Source: Rhodospirillaceae bacterium (GTDB lineage: Bacteria > Pseudomonadota > Alphaproteobacteria > Rhodospirillales > JABHCV01). Taken from it: DNA of 33,196 nucleotides. Location of the stretch: positions 1 to 33,196 of the forward strand of contig JABHGV010000028.1 of the NCBI GenBank assembly GCA_018671895.1, read 5' to 3'. Positions 223-26,736 of this stretch are shown in pieces. Position numbers and translations under genes: made by a program. Positions within the stretch are counted from its first letter, which is position 1. Each line of letters begins with the position of its first letter. Under the pieces are notes generated by a model that ran no database searches, was not told where the DNA came from, and saw only the letters and a list, made by a program, of their open reading frames with translations.

Positions 223-236
223 TTGACCATGGTCAA
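223..236. promoter_or_regulatory. FNR/FnrL-type operator upstream of the PhyH-family gene
   Basis: The sequence TTGACCATGGTCAA is a perfect 14-bp palindrome of the form TTGAY-N4-RTCAA, the consensus of FNR/FnrL/Anr oxygen-sensing regulators. Its end lies 77 bases before the chosen ATG at 314, a normal distance for an activator site. No convincing -10 box is seen; CATTTA at 260-265 is only a weak match. The same half-sites, TTGAC and GTCAA, recur at 3655-3668 upstream of ubiT. Binding and the direction of control are inferred. Confidence 0.65.
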
Positions 237-313
237 AGCAAAGGGCCGGACTCCGTGGCCATTTAGTCGGCCGCATTGAAAATGTTCAGTTATTGACAGG
301 GGGAATGGGCGTT

Positions 314-1081
314 ATGTCGTTATCACAAGCGCAGATAGATGAATTTCGCGATAAGGGCTTCGTCGTCGTCGGGGGATTCTTCAACCCCGATGAAGCGGCG
401 AAAATTTCCGCATGGCTCGATGAGATGAGAGACAAGCAACCGGCAGACGGTGAGGAGGCAAAATACTACGAAACCAGCCCGCTGAACGGTGAAAACATTC
501 TGGTCCGCATCGAAAATGTTATCGGCGCGCAAAATCAGGATATGTCGGACCTTGTGATTTCCGACAAGGCCAAAGAGGCCCTGACCCAGCTGATTGGCGA
601 AGCGCCAGTCCTGTTCAAGGAAAAAGCCAATTACAAACTTCCCGGTTGCCGTGCCGACAAGCTGCATCAGGATCAGGCCGCAGGCTGGAACGCCTATTGC
701 GATTTCTTCATTACCATGGGCATCGCGGTGGATGAAAACCGGATCGACAACGGCGCGCTCAGTTTCATGAATTCCGGTAATTACAAAAAAGAACTGATGA
801 CCGATGAATGGAAGCCGTTGACCGAGGATGACCCGCCGTATCAGCCCGAAGACGAATACGTACTGATCGAGGCAAATCCCGGTGATGTGATTTTCTTTGA
901 TGCCTATGTGCCGCACGGCTCGCCGCCGAATACCGGCAGCCGCAGCCGACGCAATATCTTCCTGACCTTCAATCGGGAATCCGACGGCGATATGCGCGAA
1001 AAGTATTATCAGGACAAGTGGGCGAACTATGCGCCGAACCAGTCGGCCGAGGCGCGCACCGACGACTCTTTCAGGGTCTAG
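314..1081 (+). CDS. Phytanoyl-CoA dioxygenase (PhyH) family Fe(II)/2-oxoglutarate oxygenase
   Basis: A 255-residue protein of the PhyH fold. These cytosolic enzymes use O2 and 2-oxoglutarate to hydroxylate a substrate. Visible iron ligands are the HxD motif H118-Q-D120 and the distal H201 in a PHGSPPN segment. R212/R213, followed by NIFLTFN, fit the 2-oxoglutarate-binding arginine region. The substrate cannot be read from the sequence. Relatives act on lipids, ectoine or phosphonates, and a phosphonate pathway lies about 22 kb away, but a link is only a guess. I chose the ATG at 314 because GGGGG at 299-303 is well spaced from it; TTG 293 and ATG 305 fit worse. The stop overlaps that of the convergent ubiV: the palindrome CTAG at 1078-1081 provides TAG on both strands. 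An FNR-type box lies upstream at 223-236. Confidence 0.85.
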   Translation: MSLSQAQIDEFRDKGFVVVGGFFNPDEAAKISAWLDEMRDKQPADGEEAKYYETSPLNGENILVRIENVIGAQNQDMSDLVISDKAKEALTQLIGEAPVLFKEKANYKLPGCRADKLHQDQAAGWNAYCDFFITMGIAVDENRIDNGALSFMNSGNYKKELMTDEWKPLTEDDPPYQPEDEYVLIEANPGDVIFFDAYVPHGSPPNTGSRSRRNIFLTFNRESDGDMREKYYQDKWANYAPNQSAEARTDDSFRV

Positions 1082-1974
1082 CTGAAAGTGTATCCGGTCT
1101 GGTTGTTGATGTAGCCGTTGCAGAACGTCGCATCACCGGCCAGGGCGGAAAGCCGTTCGCTGGCCTCGTCGGGTGCTGTCTTGCCATCAATGACGGCGCG
1201 GTATGTTTCGCTGACCGCCACCATGTCGACGCTGGCATGGGGCGACAGGCGCAGCCGACGGATGCCCAAATCAAGCAGGTCGGGAACGGCGGCGCTTAAA
1301 TCCGTGTAGGCATGTGACAGGGTTTGCACACCATTGATCGCAAGGAACGGCTCGCCATCCAGGGTCTCAACCTCCATCCCGTCGGCATCCTCGATACAGA
1401 CATACTGACACCCGTCCTTGTGCAGGCCGTGGGCGCGGGCGTGGTAACACCGCGCCGAAATCGCCAACGGCAGACGTCCGAACACCATCACTTCCAATTC
1501 TGCCGGGCTGTCCTTGGCCAATGCCCCCAGCGCATCCATACCCAATTCCACCGGCAGGCATACCGAGCGCGCCCCGTTTCGGGCCAGATAGGCCAACGTT
1601 CCTTCGTTGTAGACATTGACGAACGGGCCGACCGCATGGGGCCTGCCACCCAGCAGCGCGACCGCCGAGACGTCGTTGGCCTCGACAATAATGTTGTCTT
1701 CGTCAATCGCCGCGGTGTCGCGAACGCTTTTCATCTCGCGCTTGTTCATGATCAACGCCAGTGTCGATAAAATGACCTGCTTGTCGGCTGCCAGCAGTCG
1801 CTCTATCACGTCAGCCATATAGGGCTCGAAAAAGGGCGCGCGCTTCGAACACACAACCTCGCCGACGCAAACCACATCGACGTCGGCCTCGTCTGCCATG
1901 CGAAAGTGGAAATCTCGCCAGTCTTCCGGTGTCCAGTTGAACAGAACAGGGCCCATGACCAAGGTTGTGTTCAT
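1078..1974 (-). CDS. ubiV: UbiV, U32 peptidase-family iron-sulfur protein of O2-independent ubiquinone synthesis
   Basis: A 298-residue U32-family protein. UbiV forms a complex with UbiU that is needed to hydroxylate the ubiquinone ring without oxygen. It carries a [4Fe-4S] cluster on four cysteines. Here they are C42 (in VCSKR), C176, C189 and C193. The 13- and 4-residue steps between the last three equal those of E. coli UbiV (C180, C193, C197). TTAGGGGA lies 7 bases before the ATG. It is the last gene of ubiT-ubiU-ubiV, 11 bp after ubiU, so the order and the cysteine pattern both separate it from the tRNA-modifying or collagenase-like U32 proteins. It converges on the PhyH-family gene with overlapping stop codons. 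Confidence 0.94.
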   Translation of the reverse strand: MNTTLVMGPVLFNWTPEDWRDFHFRMADEADVDVVCVGEVVCSKRAPFFEPYMADVIERLLAADKQVILSTLALIMNKREMKSVRDTAAIDEDNIIVEANDVSAVALLGGRPHAVGPFVNVYNEGTLAYLARNGARSVCLPVELGMDALGALAKDSPAELEVMVFGRLPLAISARCYHARAHGLHKDGCQYVCIEDADGMEVETLDGEPFLAINGVQTLSHAYTDLSAAVPDLLDLGIRRLRLSPHASVDMVAVSETYRAVIDGKTAPDEASERLSALAGDATFCNGYINNQTGYTFS

Positions 1975-1985
1975 TCGACGATCCC

Positions 1986-2972
1986 CTAACGCCAGGTTTT
2001 CTGATAGGCACCGGCGGTCTTGCGTTGACCTTCGGTGATCTCGGTCAGATCGGTTTCAACGACGGCTCCGTCATCCATCGAATCGACGGCTCGGCGAAAC
2101 GATGTCACGACCTTCGCGATATAGGCCTTGCCGCGCTGGCGGCCCTCGATCTTCAGGCCCGTCACTCCGGCCTTGGCCAAATCGGGCAGGATCGATGCGG
2201 CATTCAGGCTGACCGGGTCTTCGAACAAATACGATGCTTCGCCGTTGGCAACGAACCGTCCCTTGCACAGGGTCGGATAGCCCGCCGCCTCATCGGCCTC
2301 AAACGCGTTGATGGTGAAATCACCCAGCTTCGAGACCATGCGGCCGTTTTCGTCTTCGTCATAGCGCACGGCGCAGGCCGGGGAGCAGACGCCGTTGGTG
2401 TTGGGCGACTGGCCGGTGGCGTAAGACGACAACGCACAGCGGCCCTCGGCCATGACGCACAGACCTCCGAATACGAAGACCTCGGTCTCAACATCGATCT
2501 CCTTGTTCAGGGCGGCGATCTCGGCGACGCTCAGCACTCGTGGCAGAACCACGCGTTTGACGTCGAAGGCATCTTGATAAAAACGAATGGCCTCGGGGTT
2601 TGACGCGGACGCCTGCACCGACAGATGGCGACGCAGATCGGGATGTTTGCGGCTCGCATAATCAAGCATGCCGATATCGGCCAGGATAACCGCATCGACG
2701 CCAAGACTGGCGCCGTCGTCGACCGCCTGATGCCAGGCGGTGCTGTCGCCCGCCGTCGGGAAGGTATTGATGGCCAGGAATATCTTGCAGCCATTGTCAT
2801 GGGCATGGTCGATGCCTTGCTGCAATTCATCGCGGCTGAAATTCAGGCCGGGAAAATTGCGGGCATTGGTGGCGTCGCGAAACCCCAGATAGACGGCATC
2901 CGCACCACTGCTGACCGCGGCCTTCAACGCCGCCGGGGTTCCGGCCGGGCATACAAGTTCCAATGCGGTCAT
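1986..2972 (-). CDS. ubiU: UbiU, U32 peptidase-family iron-sulfur protein of O2-independent ubiquinone synthesis
   Basis: A 328-residue U32-family protein, the usual length for UbiU. With UbiV it carries out or enables the oxygen-independent hydroxylations that replace the flavin mono-oxygenases UbiI, UbiH and UbiF. The four expected cluster ligands are seen at C172, C179, C196 and C236. Their spacing of 7, 17 and 40 closely follows E. coli UbiU (C169, C176, C193, C232). The N-terminus ELVCPAGTPAALKAAV is typical of the family. The start codon overlaps the ubiT stop (ATGA at 2969-2972), indicating translational coupling. RlhA/YegQ-like U32 hydroxylases are related, but the UbiT and UbiV neighbours settle the call. 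Confidence 0.95.
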   Translation of the reverse strand: MTALELVCPAGTPAALKAAVSSGADAVYLGFRDATNARNFPGLNFSRDELQQGIDHAHDNGCKIFLAINTFPTAGDSTAWHQAVDDGASLGVDAVILADIGMLDYASRKHPDLRRHLSVQASASNPEAIRFYQDAFDVKRVVLPRVLSVAEIAALNKEIDVETEVFVFGGLCVMAEGRCALSSYATGQSPNTNGVCSPACAVRYDEDENGRMVSKLGDFTINAFEADEAAGYPTLCKGRFVANGEASYLFEDPVSLNAASILPDLAKAGVTGLKIEGRQRGKAYIAKVVTSFRRAVDSMDDGAVVETDLTEITEGQRKTAGAYQKTWR

Positions 2973-3562
2973 GCTTCAGGCGCTTTGGGAATTCTGGATT
3001 GCGGGGCCAGTGCGCAGTCTTTCAGAAACTCAAGATCGTCGTTCAGTCGTGAATACAGGCGTTCACCAAGGCCGAACGCATGGCGCGCGGGCATTGCAAA
3101 CGGACCCAGGAAATCCAGCAGGTCGCGTTTGACGTCGATACCGGCATCGTCGACGGCATTGCGCAAGGCGACGACGGCCTCTGTATCGCCTTCGATGGAC
3201 AGGGTGCGCGAGAAAAACATCGCGTCGCCGTCGATGCGGCCTTCCAACAGGTCAATCAATGTCAGCAAGGGGCCACGGATCGTCGCCACCGCCCGGTCGG
3301 CGTCTTCACGCGCTGCCGTCAGGCGCGGATGTTCCGGGTCGGCATCAAGAATGAAGACCAGGGGAAGGTCGATGGGGTCAATCAGGAAAACAGTTTCGTT
3401 CAGGCATGACAGCCTTTCGAACAGTCCGGGATGGCTGCGGTTCAGGATCGCAAATATGGCATCAAGGGCCGGTTGTAACAGTCGCGGCGACAGGGGTCGC
3501 GCCAGCAGGCCGGCCAAAAGCACCGGGGACAAGGGCGGCGTCTTTCCATGGGTGGGAAACAA
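2969..3562 (-). CDS. ubiT: UbiT, SCP2-domain lipid-binding accessory factor for O2-independent ubiquinone synthesis
   Basis: A 197-residue protein of the SCP2/UbiJ-like lipid-binding type. UbiT is the anaerobic counterpart of UbiJ and is thought to hold the hydrophobic ubiquinone intermediates. Visible traits are a proline-rich N-terminal stretch, a mixed alpha/beta SCP2-like core with a segment around GRIDGDAMFFSRTLSIEGDTE, and a length close to E. coli UbiT. The start is TTG at 3562: AAAGGAG lies 8 bases upstream and no better ATG exists. It is the first gene of ubiTUV. An FNR-type box and a CATTAT -10 lie 67-106 bp upstream, so expression under low oxygen is likely. Confidence 0.9.
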   Translation of the reverse strand: MFPTHGKTPPLSPVLLAGLLARPLSPRLLQPALDAIFAILNRSHPGLFERLSCLNETVFLIDPIDLPLVFILDADPEHPRLTAAREDADRAVATIRGPLLTLIDLLEGRIDGDAMFFSRTLSIEGDTEAVVALRNAVDDAGIDVKRDLLDFLGPFAMPARHAFGLGERLYSRLNDDLEFLKDCALAPQSRIPKAPEA

Positions 3563-3628: not shown

Positions 3629-3668
3629 ATAATGTCAAAGGGACTCCTCAGTGCTTGACCGCCGTCAA
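3629..3668 (-). promoter_or_regulatory. FNR-type operator and promoter of ubiTUV
   Basis: TTGACCGCCGTCAA at 3655-3668 is TTGAC-N4-GTCAA, matching TTGAY-N4-RTCAA in both halves. On the minus strand CATTAT lies at 3634-3629, 20 bases past the box. A start near 3622 puts the box centre at about -40, the class II position from which FNR-type proteins activate. The leader to the TTG start would be about 60 nt. The same box lies 118 bp before the permease gene on the other strand and could also affect that gene. The geometry is read from sequence; binding is inferred. Confidence 0.7.
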
Positions 3669-9990: not shown

Positions 9991-10470
9991 ATGGTCAAGG
10001 CACTTCACATCGTGGTCGATGACTGCACCGGCTGTCAGCAATGCGAGATGGCATGCAGTTACAAGCACGAAGGTGTTTTCAATCCGGCTAAATCCCGGAT
10101 CAAGGTCTTCGAATTCAAGGATCAGGGACGCAGCGTTCCCTATACATGTACCCAGTGCTCCGACGCCTGGTGCATGCAGGCCTGTCCGGTCGATGCCATT
10201 TCCGTTAACACCCAAACGGGCGCGAAAGAGGTCTCGGGCGACCTGTGTGTCGGCTGCAAGGTCTGCACCATCGCGTGTCCGTTCGGCACCATCAATTACA
10301 ACCACACCTCTGGCAAGGTCGATAAGTGCGACCTGTGCGGGGGCGAGCCGGCCTGTGTCGAAATATGTCCGACACCGGCTTTGACGTTCATCGATGCCGA
10401 AACGACCGGCATGGAAAAAATGCGCTATTGGGCTGAGAAAACTGATCAGGGCCAGACGGCGCAAACCTGA
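9991..10470 (+). CDS. aorA: AorA, four-cluster ferredoxin subunit of aldehyde oxidoreductase
   Basis: A 159-residue polyferredoxin of the DMSO-reductase beta-subunit kind. Sixteen cysteines form four sets: C12/15/18/22, C53/56/61/65, C86/89/92/96 and C113/116/122/126. This allows four [4Fe-4S] clusters to pass electrons between the tungsten subunit and the flavoprotein. No signal sequence is seen, so the complex should be cytoplasmic. AGGG lies about 10 bases before the ATG. The order ferredoxin, large subunit, FAD subunit, MoaD-like protein is that of the aldehyde oxidoreductase of Aromatoleum aromaticum, and the gene name is taken from there. It is the first gene of the operon. Confidence 0.85.
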   Translation: MVKALHIVVDDCTGCQQCEMACSYKHEGVFNPAKSRIKVFEFKDQGRSVPYTCTQCSDAWCMQACPVDAISVNTQTGAKEVSGDLCVGCKVCTIACPFGTINYNHTSGKVDKCDLCGGEPACVEICPTPALTFIDAETTGMEKMRYWAEKTDQGQTAQT

Positions 10471-10506
10471 GTTCAACAAACGACAGTAAATGGGGAGGAT
10501 TTGACG

Positions 10507-12354
10507 ATGGCTTTAACGAATAAAGTATTGAGAGTGAACCTGAGCAACGGCACTTGCGAAAGCGAGGCGACGAATGCGGAATGGGCTAAAAAATATCTGG
10601 GGCAACGTGGGCTTGCGACCAAGTATATGGTTGAAGAAGTCGACCCCAAGGTCGATGCCCTGTCAGCCGATAACAAACTGATCTTTGCCACTGGTCCGTT
10701 GACCGGCACCGCCGCCCCGACATCCGGGCGCTGGTCGGTGATTACCAAAAGCCCGTTGACCGGAGCCATCGCGTGCTCCAACTCCGGCGGTTTCTTTGGT
10801 GCCGAAATGAAAAATGCCGGCTGGGACATGATCATTTTCGAAGGCAAGTCCGACGGCCCGGTTTATCTGGATATCACCAATGATCAGGCGGAACTGAAAG
10901 ACGCCTCGAACATGTGGGGAAAGACGGTCTGGGAGACCGAAGACATGCTGCGCGAAATTCGTGGCGACAATGACATTCGCTGCGCATCCATCGGCCCGGC
11001 CGGTGAAAGCGGCGTACTGTTTGCCGCTGTCGTTAACGACAAGGACCGTGCCGCCGGGCGTTCCGGTGTTGGTACCGTGATGGGCTCGAAGAACCTGAAG
11101 GCCATCGCCGTTCGCGGCACCGTCGGCACACAGGTCGGCGACGCCATGAAGTTCATGCAGGCAGCCGGTGCAGCCAAACAGATTTTGGCCGATAACGCCG
11201 TTACCGGCGAAGGACTGCCGACATACGGCACCCAGGTGCTGATGAACGTCATCAACGAAACCGGTGCACTGCCAACCCGTAACGCCAACGATGTACAGTT
11301 CGAAGGCGCATCGAAAATTGGCGGCGAGGCCATGCACGAAATTCGCGAAAGCGACGGGCAGGCCAATCTGGTCTCCAACAACGCCTGTTTCGGTTGTCCC
11401 ATATCGTGTGCGCGTATCTCGAAGATCGATCCCGAGCACTTCACGGTCAAGGGGCGGCCCGAGTATCAGATCAACAGTGGCGGTCTGGAATATGAATCGG
11501 CGTGGTCTCTGGGGGCCGCGACCGGGGTGGATGATCTCGAAGCCCTGACCTATTGCAATTTCATTTGCAACGAACTGGGTATGGACCCGATTTCGCTGGG
11601 TTCGACCATTGCCGCGGCGATGGACCTGTACAAGGAAGGCGCCATCACCGATGAAGATACCGGTGGCATGAAGCTTGAATTCGGCAACACGAAAGCCTTG
11701 GTGGCAATCGTCGAGGCGACCGGCCGTGGTGAAGGCTTCGGTGTCGAAATCGGACAGGGCTCGCGTCGTATGTGTGAAAAGTACGGCAGGCCGGAACTGT
11801 CGATGACGGTCAAGAGCCAGGAGTTCCCGGCGTATGATCCGCGCGGCATTCAGGGCATGGGCCTGACCTATGCCACATCGAACCGTGGGGCATGTCATCT
11901 GCGCAGCTACACGGTGGCCTCGGAAGTGCTGGGCATTCCTGAAAAAACCGATCCGCTGACGCCTGATGGCAAGGCCGGTCTGGTCAAGGCTTTCCAGGAT
12001 GCAACCGCGGTGGTCGATTCGTCGGGCACCTGCATCTTCACCACCTTCGCGCTGACCATGGATGACATCGCACCGATGATCGATGCCGATCTGGAAGGGG
12101 ACTGGTCGTCAGAAACCCTGATGGAACTGGGCGAACGTGTCTGGAACCTGGAACGCAAGTTCAACATGGATGCCGGTCTTACGGCTGCTGATGACACCCT
12201 GCCGCAGCGATTGCTCAAGGAAGCGGCCAAAACCGGCCCGGCCAAAGGCAAGGTCAACGAACTGGACAAGATGTTGCCGGAATACTACGAGCTTCGTGGC
12301 TGGACCGCCGATGGCGTGCCATCAAACGAAACTCTGGACCGGTTGAAACTTTAG
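10507..12354 (+). CDS. aorB: AorB, tungsten-pterin aldehyde ferredoxin oxidoreductase large subunit
   Basis: A 615-residue catalytic subunit that oxidises aldehydes to acids at a bis-tungstopterin site; relatives can run in reverse. The family signature RAAGRSGVGTVMGSKNLKAI region is present. The proximal [4Fe-4S] cluster ligands are C294, C297 and C301 (CxxCxxxC) plus a distant cysteine, probably C509 in SSGTC. E328 or E330 in GLEYES and H464 in RGACHLRS sit where the Pyrococcus enzyme has its active-site glutamate and histidine; this alignment is by eye. The start is ATG 10507, 8 bases after GGAGG; an in-frame TTG at 10501 is less likely. Tungsten rather than molybdenum is inferred from the family. 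A strong terminator follows at once. Confidence 0.93.
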   Translation: MALTNKVLRVNLSNGTCESEATNAEWAKKYLGQRGLATKYMVEEVDPKVDALSADNKLIFATGPLTGTAAPTSGRWSVITKSPLTGAIACSNSGGFFGAEMKNAGWDMIIFEGKSDGPVYLDITNDQAELKDASNMWGKTVWETEDMLREIRGDNDIRCASIGPAGESGVLFAAVVNDKDRAAGRSGVGTVMGSKNLKAIAVRGTVGTQVGDAMKFMQAAGAAKQILADNAVTGEGLPTYGTQVLMNVINETGALPTRNANDVQFEGASKIGGEAMHEIRESDGQANLVSNNACFGCPISCARISKIDPEHFTVKGRPEYQINSGGLEYESAWSLGAATGVDDLEALTYCNFICNELGMDPISLGSTIAAAMDLYKEGAITDEDTGGMKLEFGNTKALVAIVEATGRGEGFGVEIGQGSRRMCEKYGRPELSMTVKSQEFPAYDPRGIQGMGLTYATSNRGACHLRSYTVASEVLGIPEKTDPLTPDGKAGLVKAFQDATAVVDSSGTCIFTTFALTMDDIAPMIDADLEGDWSSETLMELGERVWNLERKFNMDAGLTAADDTLPQRLLKEAAKTGPAKGKVNELDKMLPEYYELRGWTADGVPSNETLDRLKL

Positions 12355-12375
12355 GGCCGGTCTTTAAAAGGAACA

Positions 12376-12412
12376 AGCCGCGCCCTTGGTTCAAGCAGGG
12401 CGCGGCTTTTTC
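12376..12412 (+). terminator. Strong Rho-independent terminator between aorB and aorC
   Basis: AGCCGCGCCC (12376-12385) and GGGCGCGGCT (12398-12407) form a perfect 10-bp GC-rich stem with a 12-nt loop, followed by TTTTT to 12411. It lies only 21 bp after the aorB stop and 17 bp before the aorC start. There is little room for a new promoter behind it, so aorC and later genes probably depend on read-through. Confidence 0.85.
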
Positions 12413-12428
12413 ATTCTGGGAAGCGGAT

Positions 12429-13667
12429 ATGAAACACGTGATTGTCGGTGCCGGTCCTGCGGGTGTTACCGCGGCAGAGACCCTTCGCAAAGCCGACCCG
12501 GACGGCGAGGTCACCCTCGTCGGCGGCGAGGCCGACCCGCCGTACGGGCGCATGGCCATTCCGTATTTCCTGATTGGTAACATCGCCGACAGCGGTACCT
12601 TCCTTCGGAAATCAGACGACCCTTACGACGGGCAGGGCATTCGCTATGTACAAGGCATTGCCGAAGACCTCGCGGCCGATGACGGCAAGCTGACACTGGC
12701 CGACGGTCAGCAGCTGGATTTCGACAAATTGCTGATCTCTACCGGTTCGCACCCGATCAAGCCGCCCATCGACGGCCTTGATCTACCCGCCGTCCATCAT
12801 TGCTGGACGTTGCAGGACGCCCGCGATATTTGCGGCCTGATCGGCGAGGGCAAAGACGTGGTGCTGATGGGGGCCGGGTTCATCGGCTGCATTATTATGG
12901 AGGCGCTGGCTCTATCGGGCAGCAACCTGACGGTAATCGAGGCTCAGGACCGGATGGTTCCCCGCATGATGAACAAGACGGCAGGCGACATGATCGCCAA
13001 CTGGTGCCGCAGCAAGGGCGTCAATGTGATGACGTCGGCCAAGGTAACGGGCGTGGCAGAAGACGGGGGCAAATTGTCGATCACTGTCGATAATGGCGAG
13101 ACACTCCCCGCCGACCTTCTGGTCGTCGCCACAGGCGTGCGCTCGAATATGGATTTTGCCTCAGGCTCGGGCATTGATATGGATATCGGCATCAAGGTCG
13201 ACGACCATCTGCAAAGCAGCATCAATAGCATCTATGCCGCCGGTGACGTCGCCCAGGGGCCGGATTTCTCGACCGGCGGCTGGGATGTGCATGCGGTGCA
13301 GCCGACCTCCGTCGACCATGGCCGCATCGCGGCACTGAACATGGCCGGGCACGACGTCACCTATCAGGGTAGCCTGAACATGAACGTCCTCGACACGGTC
13401 GGACTGATTTCGTGTTCGTTTGGTCTGTGGCAGGGGGTTGAAGGTGGTGACAGTTCCGAAAAAGTGGACACCGCCAACAGCCGCTATACGTTGCTCAACT
13501 TCGATGGCGACCTGCTGGTCGGTGCCGTCACTTTGGGGCGTACCGATCATATCGGCGTGCTGCGCGGACTTATACAATCGCGGATCCGTCTTCGCGGCTG
13601 GAAAGACAAGCTGATGGAAGATCCCAATTTGTTTGTCGAAGCCTATGTTGACCTGACCCGCACATGA
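12429..13667 (+). CDS. aorC: AorC, FAD/NAD(P)-dependent oxidoreductase subunit
   Basis: A 412-residue flavoprotein of the pyridine nucleotide-disulfide oxidoreductase fold, without a redox-active CxxxxC pair. It shows an FAD-binding IVGAGPAG near the N-terminus, a second dinucleotide site VVLMGAGFIG at about residues 148-157, and the FAD signature IYAAGDVAQG. In three-subunit aldehyde oxidoreductases this subunit links the ferredoxin to NAD, so the complex here can probably use NAD+ or NADH directly. GGGAAG lies just before the start. The aorD start overlaps its stop (ATGA at 13664-13667). Confidence 0.87.
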   Translation: MKHVIVGAGPAGVTAAETLRKADPDGEVTLVGGEADPPYGRMAIPYFLIGNIADSGTFLRKSDDPYDGQGIRYVQGIAEDLAADDGKLTLADGQQLDFDKLLISTGSHPIKPPIDGLDLPAVHHCWTLQDARDICGLIGEGKDVVLMGAGFIGCIIMEALALSGSNLTVIEAQDRMVPRMMNKTAGDMIANWCRSKGVNVMTSAKVTGVAEDGGKLSITVDNGETLPADLLVVATGVRSNMDFASGSGIDMDIGIKVDDHLQSSINSIYAAGDVAQGPDFSTGGWDVHAVQPTSVDHGRIAALNMAGHDVTYQGSLNMNVLDTVGLISCSFGLWQGVEGGDSSEKVDTANSRYTLLNFDGDLLVGAVTLGRTDHIGVLRGLIQSRIRLRGWKDKLMEDPNLFVEAYVDLTRT

Positions 13668-22235: not shown

Positions 22236-22880
22236 TCACCCGAACAGGCCGCTTGATGCGACGCCGTCGAATATAAATTGTACCGCCAGTGCCGCCAGCA
22301 ACACGCCGACGACGCGGGTAATCACGTTCAGGCCCGTCACGCCAAGCAATTTGTGTATGCGTCCGGCCATCATCAACATCACCAGTGTGACGACCAGAAC
22401 CACGATGATGGCGACAATAATCGCAATGTCCAAGTGAATGTCACCCCCGGCCTTGGCAGATAACAGAACCACCGCACCCATGGTGCCGGGCCCGGCGATT
22501 AACGGCGTCGCCAATGGAAAGACGGAAATGTCGTCTTTGCTGCCAGCTTCGCGGGTTTCATCATCGGTCGTCGACGATCCGCCTGACGGCCTTGCGAAAA
22601 CCATGTCGATGGCGATCAGCAACAACAGAATGCCACCCGCCGTCTTCATCGCCGGCAGGGTGATGCCCAGCCGTCCGAGGATTTCGTCACCCAGCAGGGC
22701 AAAGGCCAGCATGATGCCCCCGGCAATCAACGTTCCCTTGATGGCCATGGCGCGACGGTGGTGCGCGTCTGAATCCTTTGTCAGGGCTGCGAACAGGGCG
22801 GCAACGTCGATCGGGCTGATGGTGGCGAAAAGCGTGGTGAAGACCAGCAGACCAAATTCCAGTACGACGGGGTCGATCAC
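22236..22880 (-). CDS. MarC (UPF0056) family integral membrane protein
   Basis: A 214-residue protein with about six membrane helices. The N-terminal LFATISPIDVAALFAALTKD and the second-half FPLATPLIAGPGTMGAVVLLSAK are the inverted-repeat signatures of the MarC/YhgN family. A polar loop (about 97-118) separates the halves. The substrate of this family is not established; the old link of MarC with antibiotic resistance was not upheld. It starts with GTG overlapping the phnW stop (GTGA at 22877-22880), so it is translated together with the phosphonate enzymes. Confidence 0.87.
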   Translation of the reverse strand: MIDPVVLEFGLLVFTTLFATISPIDVAALFAALTKDSDAHHRRAMAIKGTLIAGGIMLAFALLGDEILGRLGITLPAMKTAGGILLLLIAIDMVFARPSGGSSTTDDETREAGSKDDISVFPLATPLIAGPGTMGAVVLLSAKAGGDIHLDIAIIVAIIVVLVVTLVMLMMAGRIHKLLGVTGLNVITRVVGVLLAALAVQFIFDGVASSGLFG

Positions 22881-23980
22881 AGGCTGACCCCCATATCCGA
22901 CAGGGTTTCGCGAACAGCATCCAGCGCGCCGCGCATTTCTATCTCAGTCAAAGCACCGATGCAGCCCATGCGGAAACTGTCAGCCACGGTCAACTTGCCC
23001 GGATAGATAACAAAGCCCTTGTCCTTAAGACCGTCGTAGAAGCTTTGGAAATCGAAGTTTTCATCATCGGGCATATGAAAGGTGATGATGATCGGTGCCT
23101 GCAGGTCATCGTCCAGCAGGGTTTTGAATCCGATCTCGCGCATACCGTCAACGAGGACACGACAGTTGTTGCTGTAACGCGCCAGCCGTCCGGGTTGTCC
23201 GCCCTCAGTGTCAAACAAATCAAGCGCCGCATCGAAAGCAGCAATAACGTGGGTCGGCGGGGTGAACCGCCATTGACCATTGTTTTCCATCGCCTGCCAT
23301 TGATCAAACAGGTCGAGGCTCAGTGAATGGGCGTTGCCTTCGCTGGCTTTAAGAACCGACTGCCGGACAATCACAAAGCCCATACCGGGAACGCCTTCGA
23401 GGCATTTGTTGGACGACGCCATCACCGCATCGAAACGAATGTCATGGGCGCTCAGCTCGATGGCACCGAAGCTGCTCATGGCATCAATCAGCAGCGAGCG
23501 ACCATGTCCGGCGACGACCTCGGCAATGGCCTGAACGGGATTGAGAATGCCCGACGTGGTCTCGCAATGGACAACCAGCACATGGCCGATGTCGGCATCC
23601 GCGGCCAGGATCGCATCAACGTCGTTGGGGTCGGCTGGTGTGTCCTCGTCGGTCTCCAGCGTCACGTAGGCACGGCCTAGAACATCCATGATCCTGGCCA
23701 TGCGCTGACCATAGGCACCGTTAATCAGGATCAGGGTTTTACCGTCCCGCGGGATCAGGGTGCCGATGGCGGCTTCGACAGCGAACGTGCCGCTGCCCTG
23801 TACCGGAACGCAAACGTGCGTCGCCGCGGCTTCGGCGATGTCGAGCAGACGGGCGCGAATGCGGGCGTTGGTGGCGATGAATTCGGCATCGCGCGAGCCG
23901 ACATCGTGCAGCATGGCTTCTTTGGTTTCCCCCGCCGTACTCAACGGACCCGGAGTCAATAACCATGGATCAGTGCTCAT
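22877..23980 (-). CDS. phnW: 2-aminoethylphosphonate:pyruvate transaminase PhnW
   Basis: A 367-residue PLP enzyme that interconverts phosphonoacetaldehyde plus alanine with AEP plus pyruvate. The start LLTPGPLSTAGETKEAML is the PhnW signature. The PLP sites are D166 in LLIDAMSSFG and K192 in MASSNKCLEGVPG. In catabolic operons it works toward phosphonoacetaldehyde. Here it follows PEP mutase and phosphonopyruvate decarboxylase and no PhnX hydrolase is near, so it should make AEP. GGGGAG lies before the ATG, which is 3 bp after the decarboxylase stop. Confidence 0.94.
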   Translation of the reverse strand: MSTDPWLLTPGPLSTAGETKEAMLHDVGSRDAEFIATNARIRARLLDIAEAAATHVCVPVQGSGTFAVEAAIGTLIPRDGKTLILINGAYGQRMARIMDVLGRAYVTLETDEDTPADPNDVDAILAADADIGHVLVVHCETTSGILNPVQAIAEVVAGHGRSLLIDAMSSFGAIELSAHDIRFDAVMASSNKCLEGVPGMGFVIVRQSVLKASEGNAHSLSLDLFDQWQAMENNGQWRFTPPTHVIAAFDAALDLFDTEGGQPGRLARYSNNCRVLVDGMREIGFKTLLDDDLQAPIIITFHMPDDENFDFQSFYDGLKDKGFVIYPGKLTVADSFRMGCIGALTEIEMRGALDAVRETLSDMGVSL

Positions 23981-23983
23981 CGT

Positions 23984-25123
23984 TCACTCCCCACCCAGAA
24001 AACGGCGCAAGCGGCGGGCGACATCGTCGGGCTTGACGGTCGGCCGCGCTAGGTCGTCGATACTGCCGGGGCGGATGGCGACATGGATCATGTGCGGCCC
24101 CGGCGACTTCAAGGCGCTTTCCAGCGTTTCGGTAAAGGCTGCAATGGTGTCGGTGGATGTGGCGCTGACATAACCACAGGCGCTGGCCACTGCGGCGAAA
24201 TCGACGCTGGCCGATACGGTGCTTTGGCCACCGGTGGAATCATGAACGCCGTTGTCGAGCAAAACGTGAACCAGGTTTTCCGGGCCTTGCGCGCCAACGG
24301 TCGCCAGATTGCCCATCTTCATCAGCGCAGCACCATCGCCATCGACGACGATCACCGGCCGTGTCGTGTTCAGCGCTACGCCCAGTCCCATGGCGCTGGC
24401 CCCACCCATGGAGCCGACCTGATACAGGTGCTGTTCGCGATCAGCCAGGGTGAATAATTCGCGTCCGGCCTTGCCGGTGGTGGCGATGACGGGGGCTTCG
24501 TCCGGGATCGTCTTCAACAAGGCCTCAAGCGCCTGCATGCGTTCGGGGCGCTCGCCATTTTTTCTGATGTGACGCGGTGCCGCCGGGGTTGGCAAGGGGC
24601 GCGGGGTTTCGTTCAGTTCCTCGTCGGCAACCGAACCCTTTTCCATAATCAACGCATAGGACAGACCGGTTTCTGACATGTATTTTAAAGCGGTGTCGAG
24701 ACTGCCGCCGATGTCGGCTACATCGGTCGGGAAGGGTGCATGCGGTATCTGCATGTCGTCCAACAGTTGTCCGGTGATCTGGCCCATCAGTTCGTGCTGG
24801 GGCTCGTCCTTCAGGCCCGGCTGGCCGCGCCATGTGACGATCATCAGGGTTGGAATTCTGAACGGCCAGTTCAGCGACGTCAGTGGATTGACTGTATTGC
24901 CAAGCCCGGAATTCTGACACATGACCATGGTTGTCTTGCCAGTCAGCCATGCTCCGGCGGCGATGGCGACGGCCTCGCCCTCGCTGGCGGCACCGACATA
25001 GGCCGCCTCGTCATCGCTGATAACCCGGTTGATCAGCGGCGTCAGGAATGAACACGGCACGCCGGTGAAGAAATCAACGCCGCGGCGCTTGGCTTCATCC
25101 AGGAACTGTTCAGCGGGGATCAT
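23984..25123 (-). CDS. Phosphonopyruvate decarboxylase (Ppd/AepY)
   Basis: A 379-residue thiamine-diphosphate enzyme. It decarboxylates phosphonopyruvate to phosphonoacetaldehyde, the irreversible step that pulls the unfavourable PEP mutase reaction forward. Visible are the family start GVDFFTGVPCSFLTPLIN, a conserved glutamate region SEGEAVAIAAGA (about 48-58), and the ThDP/Mg motif from GDG at 262-264 to N291. Sulfopyruvate decarboxylases are close relatives, but the flanking PEP mutase and PhnW genes decide the substrate. Its start overlaps the PEP mutase stop (ATGA at 25120-25123). Confidence 0.93.
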   Translation of the reverse strand: MIPAEQFLDEAKRRGVDFFTGVPCSFLTPLINRVISDDEAAYVGAASEGEAVAIAAGAWLTGKTTMVMCQNSGLGNTVNPLTSLNWPFRIPTLMIVTWRGQPGLKDEPQHELMGQITGQLLDDMQIPHAPFPTDVADIGGSLDTALKYMSETGLSYALIMEKGSVADEELNETPRPLPTPAAPRHIRKNGERPERMQALEALLKTIPDEAPVIATTGKAGRELFTLADREQHLYQVGSMGGASAMGLGVALNTTRPVIVVDGDGAALMKMGNLATVGAQGPENLVHVLLDNGVHDSTGGQSTVSASVDFAAVASACGYVSATSTDTIAAFTETLESALKSPGPHMIHVAIRPGSIDDLARPTVKPDDVARRLRRFLGGE

Positions 25124-26736
25124 AAGAAGTTGCGGGCGTCGGCCAGATCGAAGGCGTCGTTGACGTCGAGCCAGTGACCGGAGAAATAGGCCACATGCGG
25201 GGTGACGCCGCTTGCGATCAGGCGGTTAAACAGATCCGGCATGTTGGCGGTTGCCAGCGAGCCGTCCTTTTCCATGGTCTCGATTTCCGCTTTTACCAGC
25301 CGTGCGCCTTCGCCGCTCATCTTGACCAGTCCAATCCATTCGCCCTGCGCACCGTCTGCGTCAGATGTCATCTGCTCCAGCAGCACAGGTGCATCATCGA
25401 TGATGTCTTCGGCAAAAGGCTTGCTGCACTTGGCGAAGTCACCGTCGGATTTGCGTACGGTGGCATCGATGGCGACGGTGATGTCGGCGTCTGATCGCAT
25501 AAGGCGATCCAGAATGTGGTTGCGGAACAGGATATCGCCGTAAGAAACCACCACGTTGCCGTCAATGCGGTCTTGGGCACAAGCCAGCGAGGCGACTTCG
25601 CCGGTTGTCTCGTAATCATCGTTGACGACCTTGTTGATGTTGGCCAAATCGACGGCTTCATGCTTGTAGCCGCCAACCACCGTAATGTCGGTGATGCCGC
25701 TGTCGTTCAACGAGTGGGTAAGGCGGCGCAACAGCGGCTTGCCGCGCACATCAAGCATGCATTTCGGCTTTTCAGCCGTCAGGTCGGCCAGTTGATGGCC
25801 CCGGGATGCGGCCAGCAGGATGGCTTTGGTTTCGCCGCCACGATCCGGCAGATAGCGTTTCTCGGCCTCTGCCAGTTCGGTGTTGCCAGCGATGGTGAAG
25901 ACATCGCTGATGCTCGCCACATTTCCTTCAATGTCGCGCAGGCTCTGGCTCTCGTAGATTTTTTCAGACACATCGCGCATCGCCGCCAGCGATGAACGCA
26001 GGTTGTGGTTGGCCCAGATAACCAGCGAGATGTTGGCCGCCCGGAAGGCGTCCGTCGGGGTGTCGTAATATTTTGTCGGCACGATGACCAGCGGCGAGCG
26101 GTTATCCCATTCCTTGGCGAAGGTCAGGACCTCGTCGGCGGTCGATCGCTTGGAATGAATTAAAATGCCGTCGGCTCCGGCGACACGATAGGCCTCGGCC
26201 CGGCGCAGCGCCTCGTCCATGCCTTTGCCTGCAATCAGCGCCTCGACGCGGGCGACGACGGAAAAGTCGTCGTCCAGCTGGCTGTCTTTACCAGCTTTGA
26301 TCTTGCCGCAAAATTCGTCGACGTCGGCCAGTTCCTGATCGCCATCGACGAAGGAATTGGTCTTCGGGAATTGCTTGTCTTCGATGCAGACGGCGGCAAT
26401 GTTGCGCTGGCACAGCTTGCGGACCAGTCGGCGGAAATTGTTGAAGTCGCCATAACCGGTATCGCCGTCGAGCATGATCGGGATTGATGTGGCGTCGGAC
26501 ATGAATTCAAGAACGTCGATGACCTGTGTCCAGGATGCTTCGTTGCGGTCGCGCACACCCAGTGCCGTGGCAATGGACAGTCCGGACCCCCAAATCGCTT
26601 CGAAGCCGGTTTGTTCGACGATCTTTGCCGACAACCCGTCATGGGCTTCCATACAGAACGACAATTCGTCGTTGCCGAGCATGGACCTGAATTTAGCGGC
26701 CTTGGTTTGGCTAGGTGTATTCTTGTTGTCAGACAT
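25120..26736 (-). CDS. pepM: PEP mutase fused to a nucleotidyltransferase domain (PepM-PntC type)
   Basis: A 538-residue two-domain enzyme. Residues about 12-295 are phosphoenolpyruvate mutase, which forms the C-P bond of all common phosphonates: metal-site D90 and D92 in MLDGDTGYGD, and the mutase-specific EDKQFPKTNSF (119-129), which separates it from isocitrate-lyase-like relatives. Residues about 304-538 are a MobA/RmlA-like nucleotidyltransferase starting at ILLAASRGHQLADLTAEKPK. Such fusions are widespread, and the related PntC makes CMP-AEP. A CMP-activated AEP for phosphonolipid or polymer decoration is therefore plausible. The glycine-rich loop has AAS where the broader family has AAG. 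The gene lies 12 bp after the short-chain dehydrogenase gene and overlaps the decarboxylase gene. Confidence 0.93.
   Translation of the reverse strand: MSDNKNTPSQTKAAKFRSMLGNDELSFCMEAHDGLSAKIVEQTGFEAIWGSGLSIATALGVRDRNEASWTQVIDVLEFMSDATSIPIMLDGDTGYGDFNNFRRLVRKLCQRNIAAVCIEDKQFPKTNSFVDGDQELADVDEFCGKIKAGKDSQLDDDFSVVARVEALIAGKGMDEALRRAEAYRVAGADGILIHSKRSTADEVLTFAKEWDNRSPLVIVPTKYYDTPTDAFRAANISLVIWANHNLRSSLAAMRDVSEKIYESQSLRDIEGNVASISDVFTIAGNTELAEAEKRYLPDRGGETKAILLAASRGHQLADLTAEKPKCMLDVRGKPLLRRLTHSLNDSGITDITVVGGYKHEAVDLANINKVVNDDYETTGEVASLACAQDRIDGNVVVSYGDILFRNHILDRLMRSDADITVAIDATVRKSDGDFAKCSKPFAEDIIDDAPVLLEQMTSDADGAQGEWIGLVKMSGEGARLVKAEIETMEKDGSLATANMPDLFNRLIASGVTPHVAYFSGHWLDVNDAFDLADARNFL

Follow-up and report, generated by a model that had tools for sequence, protein, structure and literature searches.

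The window, that is, the whole 33,196-nucleotide stretch of DNA analyzed here, is one of the 98 contigs (C98) of a 2.5-Mb, 98.5% complete host genome (G000), whose nearest named relatives place it in the Alphaproteobacteria. It begins with a stretch without called genes that contains the palindrome TTGACCATGGTCAA. The key features are listed below.

223..236, no strand: FNR/FixK/DNR-type palindrome TTGACCATGGTCAA, perfect, 77 nt upstream of the phyH ATG
314..1081, plus strand: phyH-A, a PhyH-family Fe(II)/2-oxoglutarate oxygenase of 255 aa (by homology, residues and fold), putatively a low-oxygen phosphonate head-group hydroxylase
1078..1081, no strand: CTAG with both stop codons, that of phyH-A (plus) and that of ubiV (minus), read from the sequence
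1078..1974, minus strand: ubiV, O2-independent ubiquinone synthesis (NCBIfam NF047965, 358 bits, cut-off 275)
1986..2972, minus strand: ubiU (NCBIfam NF047963, 521 bits, cut-off 440)
2969..3562, minus strand: ubiT (NCBIfam NF047962, 63.7 bits, cut-off 46.9)
3655..3668, no strand: second box, TTGACCGCCGTCAA, of the same TTGAC/GTCAA type, 92 nt upstream of the called ubiT start
22877..23980, minus strand: phnW, 2-aminoethylphosphonate aminotransferase (NCBIfam TIGR02326, 494 bits, cut-off 401)
23984..25123, minus strand: ppd, phosphonopyruvate decarboxylase (NCBIfam TIGR03297, 440 bits, cut-off 312)
25120..26736, minus strand: pepM-nucleotidyltransferase fusion for PEP mutase, the enzyme that opens phosphonate biosynthesis (NCBIfam TIGR02320, 386 bits, cut-off 320)

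The phyH-A gene starts at the ATG at 314, from which its homologs align (the mechanical open reading frame opens at TTG 293), and ends with the TAG at 1079-1081. The stop codon of the convergent ubiV is the reverse complement of 1078-1080, and the two stops indeed share the CTAG at 1078-1081, as noted in the original prediction, which had also recognized the perfect FNR-type palindrome at 223-236. In the window PepM, the nucleotidyltransferase match spans residues 304-423. Elsewhere in the window, at 9991-13667 on the plus strand, inspection by eye finds three successive genes, one ferredoxin-like, a large one that we take to resemble aldehyde ferredoxin oxidoreductase, and one like those of FAD-dependent reductases; they are possibly another low-oxygen module.

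The window protein passes the Pfam PhyH model (PF05721) with 73.4 bits against a cut-off of 22. Across 35 sequences of PhyH-A and its paralog PhyH-B, H118-x-D120, H201 and R212 are invariant; H118, D120 and H201 presumably form the iron triad, and R212 would be the 2-oxoglutarate arginine. The iron site is of the HxD type, which is typical of hydroxylases and not of halogenases. The predicted model (pLDDT 93) matches the folds of GriE, proline hydroxylase H11, PHYHD1 and EctD at Z 21-24. The residues, the family match and the predicted fold all agree with the enzyme type originally proposed, one that would depend on O2 and 2-oxoglutarate. The libraries searched contain no curated name specific to the PhyH-A subfamily; the commonest curated match, found for all 35 scanned PhyH-A and PhyH-B proteins, is the NCBIfam methylphosphonate hydroxylase NF052437, whose cut-off of 500 the window protein, at 126 bits, does not reach. 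Near phyH-A, three loci contain another small gene, of 220-249 aa, whose product may have an HxD...H pattern (L064:8865-9527, L137:6246-6923 and L163:5346-6095).

An alignment of ten relatives served to scan GTDB for homologous loci, of which the best 80 of 325 were kept. Among these, 46 belong to the phyH-A subfamily at 52-80% identity, the others not exceeding 42%; additional members, above all fragments, may exist. Removal of L160, a 3' fragment without upstream DNA that is excluded from every count, and addition of the window and a locus from genome G007 yield 47 phyH-A loci. Loci are counted out of 47 and genomes out of 43, with L156, L135, L162 and L174 sharing genomes with L149, L131, L161 and L136, respectively; L163 is excluded from the genome-wide searches for PEP mutase, Ubi hydroxylase and Coq7. 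A second sample consists of 100 relatives, 10 of them phyH-A genomes; G113, G122, G123, G125 and G128 of the 43-genome set correspond, judged from contig numbers and coordinates, to G018, G076, G008, G087 and G065 of the relatives. All counts come from related, non-independent MAGs, and the p values serve only as a guide. Family scans of neighbor genes covered ten chosen neighbors per scan, and the 12 gene clusters considered below were likewise chosen by us. Within the best 80 of 325, the carriers of phyH-A preceded by a box are MAGs labeled alpha-, gamma- or unspecified proteobacteria, and some of their isolate names (for example, Arabian12, casp150 and SI036) hint at an origin in low-oxygen waters.

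A perfect TTGAYN4RTCAA lies within 200 nt upstream of phyH-A in 14 of the 47 loci from the best 80 of 325, the window included, which amounts to 14 boxes in 9.4 kb of upstream DNA vs 8 in the other 563 kb of these loci, a density about 105 times higher. Given this recurrence and density, chance is a very unlikely origin of the box. In 13 of the 14 boxed loci, the box starts 72 to 102 nt ahead of the matched gene start; in L127 the distance is 158 nt, and an ATG sits further upstream there. The expectation that the box would be kept in relatives is thus borne out in part only, the perfect box being absent in 33 of the 47 loci, including L119, the closest homolog (80%) among the best 80 of 325. 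Sites with one mismatch (at -77 in L131, L133 and L135, at -124 in L146 and at -117 in L163) were left uncounted. Perfect boxes are absent from the searched DNA ahead of phyH (L125 and L128) and ahead of norB (L121 and L122); the best partial one matches 8 of 10 positions, and L122 has none.

With the box as the anchor of an alignment of the 14 boxed promoters, the TATAAT match is best 21-23 nt downstream, which we take to be the distance of a class II activator. No shuffle out of 5000 attains this match at offsets 20-24, and 3 out of 5000 do so at any offset; the -10 match of the window itself is poor (2 of 6 bases). Because a -10-like element stands at activator distance across the boxed homologs, repression by FNR, one of the possibilities raised originally, becomes less likely.

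The entire host genome contains TTGAYN4RTCAA in 25 places, part of them within called genes, vs 3 for a reversed control pattern. At least six of the 25, judged from box positions and family scans of chosen neighbors, lie before or between low-oxygen genes, namely, nosZ/SCO1, cytochrome cd1 nitrite reductase/cobA, ccoG (upstream only if ccoG starts at the first ATG, internal to the called open reading frame), the gene for NnrS, that for bacteriohemerythrin, and an FnrL-like gene. "FNR-type" is used here as the label of a site, not of a proven sensor, and TTGACCATGGTCAA differs from TTGAT-N4-ATCAA at two positions. The FnrL-like protein, encoded on contig C38, contains C10, C13 and C112 and appears to have no counterpart of E. 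coli FNR C29, which we take to be the third N-terminal cysteine. We considered and rejected a strict equation of the box with FNR, given that this protein, at 74.8 bits, is far below the equivalog cut-off of 300 and its set of cluster cysteines is incomplete. Another candidate for binding such boxes is the product of a gene adjoining nnrS, an FtrB-like member of the Crp family.

The neighborhood with the anaerobic ubiquinone genes recurs, as the original prediction proposed to check: in 4 of the 47 loci from the best 80 of 325, no more than 7 kb separates phyH-A from ubiTUV or ubiUV. The genes converge in the window and in L128, diverge in L125 and run in the same direction in L130, where the neighbors are ubiU and ubiV. 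In L128, the only other convergent locus among the 47, the matches end about 230 nt apart, and the overlap of stop codons is local to the window. In the available DNA of the remaining 43 of these 47 loci, ubiTUV is not found near phyH-A. Other neighbors include a NorB-like gene that precedes phyH-A in L121 and L122 and a UbiM-like hydroxylase encoded directly after phyH-A in L138, with a relative nearby in L126. The proximity of phyH-A and ubiTUV is most simply explained by shared low-oxygen control, with the genes lying together. The box ahead of ubiT is ordinary, given that candidate FNR sites are reported ahead of 1362 of 1566 ubiTUV sets (87%) in the accessible part of PMC11707229.

The host also encodes PhyH-B, at C59:7262-8014, where its neighbors are CDP-alcohol phosphotransferase-like genes as well as hpnM, hpnN, hpnA and hpnH, which are hopanoid genes. 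The two paralogs share about 40% identity and may differ in their substrates; they form two long, fully supported branches in a tree that omits L160-L162 and L174, carries a long-branch warning and has a bootstrap that is not settled. A gene is called PhyH-B when it scores more than 235 bits against the host PhyH-B, a threshold of our own, the next matches being a partial one at 220 bits and then PhyH-A genes. By this measure, PhyH-B is present in 26 of the 43 phyH-A genomes from the best 80 of 325, and specifically in 13 of 13 genomes in which phyH-A is boxed vs 13 of 30 in which it is not (Fisher p 4e-4, kinship ignored), so that PhyH-A would supplement or replace PhyH-B at low oxygen. In the clade where phyH-A lies beside pepM, no PhyH-B accompanies it and the gene is unboxed; L143, from the named strain Rhodospirillaceae LM-1, accordingly has PhyH-A but neither PhyH-B nor a box.

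The gene hemN recurs around both paralogs: it follows phyH-A in L127 and precedes the PhyH-B copy, with phyH-A nearby, in L126 and L130. In the latter two loci, from MAGs labeled gammaproteobacterial, the PhyH-B gene just after hemN (L126:4284-5036 and L130:2034-2786) is 67-68% identical to that of the host, and an FNR-type box precedes hemN in L126 and the PhyH-B gene itself in L130; this PhyH-B may likewise be under low-oxygen control. In the host, a box TTGACCCGTGTCAA at 8134-8147 of contig C59 (L071:8134) lies 116 nt after PhyH-B; another 131 nt separate it from the gene called next on that strand.

The clearest link of these enzymes is to phosphonate biosynthesis. PEP mutase exceeds the cut-off in 37 of the 43 phyH-A genomes from the best 80 of 325, with partial matches just below it in 2 more, and in none of 14 control genomes. 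Among the 100 relatives, it is found in 10 of 10 phyH-A genomes vs 27 of 90 others (Fisher p 2e-5) and, when PhyH-A and PhyH-B are taken together, in 32 of 41 genomes vs 5 of 59 (p 5e-13), that is, 32 genomes with both a PhyH and pepM, 9 with PhyH only, 5 with pepM only and 54 with neither. No more than 0.7 kb separates five of the 10 phyH-A genes of the relatives from pepM. The position divergent to pepM is occupied by PhyH-A in L066-L069 (three of these genomes are also those of L142, L143 and L145) and by PhyH-B in L072, L075 and L232-L235; in L132, phyH-A is located just upstream of pepM on the same strand. Four of the 43 phyH-A genomes have no PEP mutase, namely, G110, G112 and G114 (at most 142 bits) and G134 (no match). 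The first three (loci L229, L230 and L231) retain ppd and CDP-alcohol genes together with PhyH-B, and either their head group may differ or a PEP mutase may have been overlooked. Between ppd and PhyH-B, L230 and L231 contain a gene whose product looks like a membrane protein.

Phosphonate and hopanoid genes also meet. Genes for PepM or Ppd and CDP-alcohol phosphotransferases occur inside or beside hopanoid clusters (hpnN, hpnH, an ispH-like gene and others) in L072, L073, L075 (by eye), L229-L233, L235 and L239, and pepM or ppd accompanies hpnN, hpnH or the ispH-like gene in 7 of the 12 chosen loci (L229-L233, L235 and L239). In genome G002, PhyH-B lies within a hopanoid-like cluster (by eye) without pepM. 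A joint phosphonolipid-hopanoid system may exist; our literature search found no paper that joins phosphonate, pepM and hopanoid.

Taken together, these relationships lead us to favor, by a narrow measure, the interpretation that PhyH-A is a low-oxygen isozyme of a phosphonate-lipid hydroxylase, induced by an activator of the FNR family. The phyH-A product would be an Fe(II)/2-oxoglutarate hydroxylase within a phosphonate-lipid pathway that comprises the PEP mutase-nucleotidyltransferase, Ppd, PhnW and CDP-alcohol phosphotransferases, and would probably hydroxylate the aminoethylphosphonate (AEP) head group, or its precursor, next to the phosphorus. It would be the second isozyme, PhyH-B being encoded in a separate lipid gene cluster of the host. 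As oxygen becomes scarce, the FNR-family activator would bind the box and turn on phyH-A along with ubiTUV and the denitrification genes, so that an O2-dependent lipid modification could be sustained at micro-oxic levels. We infer the substrate, the stage that is hydroxylated (free AEP, CMP-AEP or the finished lipid), the O2 affinity, and the regulator with its signal from the sequence evidence, namely, the observed box and its partial conservation, the catalytic residues, the predicted fold, the co-occurrence with pepM and the exchange of PhyH-A and PhyH-B beside pepM. Among the roles suggested originally, a contribution to the micro-oxic shift fits best, the FNR-type box being kept in 14 of the 47 loci from the best 80 of 325. 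Several observations run contrary to the low-oxygen isozyme interpretation: 33 of these 47 loci, including the closest homolog L119, have no perfect box; the -10 match of the window is poor; the FnrL-like protein appears to lack one of the FNR cysteines; PhyH-A and PhyH-B, at about 40% identity, may act on different substrates; 4 of the 43 phyH-A genomes have no PEP mutase; G002 has PhyH-B in a hopanoid-like cluster but no pepM; pepM does not exceed the cut-off in 9 of the 41 PhyH genomes among the relatives; and phyH-A relatives more often lack a Ubi-family hydroxylase.

The last of these points favors an alternative in which PhyH-A is a micro-oxic ubiquinone hydroxylase, or another quinone-modifying enzyme, that works with or beside UbiTUV. 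A Ubi-family hydroxylase over the cut-off is missing in 8 of 10 phyH-A relatives vs 12 of 90 others (p 2e-5), a gap that made us raise the weight of the quinone role and lower that of the low-oxygen isozyme and of the broader membrane program outlined below. It is also missing in 10 of the 43 phyH-A genomes from the best 80 of 325, 7 of which have no Coq7 over the cut-off either (G039, G113, G122, G123, G125, G128 and G134, the last with a partial 203-bit match; UbiV is present in the other six). The three arrangements in which phyH-A neighbors ubiTUV or ubiUV at 7 kb or less (4 of the 47 loci), and the UbiM-like hydroxylases of L138 and L126, point in the same direction. We nevertheless regard a quinone role as distinctly unlikely. 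No ubiTUV is nearby in 43 of the 47 loci, yet PEP mutase passes in 37 of the 43 genomes, all from the best 80 of 325. Seven of the eight hydroxylase-poor phyH-A relatives belong to only two families (f4 and f14) and, where sampled, to one tree clade. The hydroxylase is missing in 17 of 37 pepM genomes vs 3 of 63 others (p 1e-6), and among the pepM genomes the effect of phyH-A is weak (missing in 8 of 10 with the gene vs 9 of 27 without it, p 0.02). All eight hydroxylase-poor relatives have UbiV, so that ubiquinone can be made without a Ubi-family hydroxylase; the host has one such hydroxylase over the cut-off and one Coq7; and PhyH-A is able to replace PhyH-B beside pepM. The quinone role, which the original prediction had entertained, is hence not the best reading of a gene that tracks pepM across genomes in a host that has both a Ubi-family hydroxylase and Coq7. 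Shared ancestry may account for the frequent lack, in pepM genomes, of the Ubi-family FAD hydroxylase and its O2-dependent step of ubiquinone synthesis.

Within lipid metabolism, PhyH-A might hydroxylate another part of the lipid produced by the same clusters, such as a hopanoid, an acyl chain or a non-phosphonate head group, as suggested by the position of the host PhyH-B among hpnM, hpnN, hpnA, hpnH and CDP-alcohol phosphotransferase-like genes and by the similar cluster without pepM in G002. We consider this unlikely: pepM is the clearest genome-wide partner, the nearest curated family acts on a phosphonate, and half of the phyH-A genes in relatives (5 of 10) are no more than 0.7 kb from pepM. 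That same nearest family, methylphosphonate hydroxylase, would be compatible with a catabolic PhnY*-type enzyme that opens the oxidative breakdown of AEP or methylphosphonate for phosphate. This reading is highly improbable, given that Phn-HD (TIGR03276), which we assume to represent PhnZ, exceeds its cut-off in none of the 43 phyH-A genomes from the best 80 of 325 and has no match in the host (G114 has one strong match below the cut-off, 193 vs 215 bits), and that the phyH genes accompany biosynthetic pepM, ppd and CDP-alcohol genes. As for the regulation, the box could be due to chance, bind a repressor or respond to NO, in which case the gene would not be induced by low oxygen as such. The absence of the box in L119, the closest homolog among the best 80 of 325, the weak -10 of the window, the FtrB-like protein beside nnrS that could read such boxes and the NorB-like gene ahead of phyH-A in L121 and L122 speak for this option, which we find very unlikely in view of the roughly 105-fold upstream enrichment in MAGs labeled alpha- and gammaproteobacterial (best 80 of 325) and the -10-like element at activator spacing.

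The low-oxygen isozyme interpretation can be extended, tentatively and with considerable doubt, to a conserved oxygen-responsive membrane program of low-oxygen proteobacteria, in which an FNR-family activator would swap in a micro-oxic PhyH isozyme and phosphonolipid hydroxylation would be kept or changed; hydroxylated phosphonolipids would then be a possible marker of oxygen-minimum waters. If correct, the scenario answers the paradox posed originally, as an O2-using enzyme under an oxygen-limitation switch would be a low-oxygen isozyme. It would also provide a PhyH subfamily that the searched libraries do not name with a testable function, tie phosphonate lipids to oxygen and denitrification control, predict a lipid to be sought in samples from oxygen-minimum zones, and distinguish co-regulation and shared chemistry in the case of a gene that abuts ubiTUV. 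Of the original prediction as a whole, what stands is the O2-dependent enzyme type behind a box kept in part of the family; the quinone role and repression are the less likely parts.

Several known systems can be compared with this locus. FNR-activated ubiTUV sets have been described (PMC11707229, PMC10470549), and the ubiT box at 3655-3668 conforms to them; the window differs in the presence of a PhyH gene, which the accessible parts of these papers do not mention. The AEP dioxygenase PhnY* yields 1-hydroxy-2-aminoethylphosphonate, according to the available portion of PMC8154272. NF052437 is the nearest curated model for all 35 scanned PhyH-A and PhyH-B proteins, which is the likeness to this enzyme; the difference is that PhnY* is catabolic and paired with PhnZ, whereas PhyH-A occurs in a biosynthetic context with no PhnZ-type partner over the cut-off. 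Lipids with 1-hydroxy-2-aminoethylphosphonate are cited for Bdellovibrio stolpii in the same portion of PMC8154272, where oxygen control is not mentioned, and this membrane head group is the one that PhyH-A would make.

For phosphonate lipids, we found no low-oxygen isozyme pattern in the open-license literature; the pattern is already known for pigment and fatty-acid enzymes of cyanobacteria. In the cyanobacterial ChlR regulon, as described in the accessible text of PMC4500134, the O2-dependent isoforms ChlAII, HO2 and DesF are induced under micro-oxic conditions and are encoded beside hemN. The regulon differs from the system proposed here in that it consists of other enzymes, includes no phosphonate pathway and is controlled by an activator outside the FNR family. 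ChlR is a MarR-type activator. The likeness, so far as that text extends, lies in O2-dependent isozymes that are turned on at low oxygen, cluster with hemN and have an aerobic copy elsewhere, and in DesF, which acts on fatty acids. By this analogy, we read PhyH-A as a putative low-oxygen isozyme comparable to ChlAII, HO2 and DesF.
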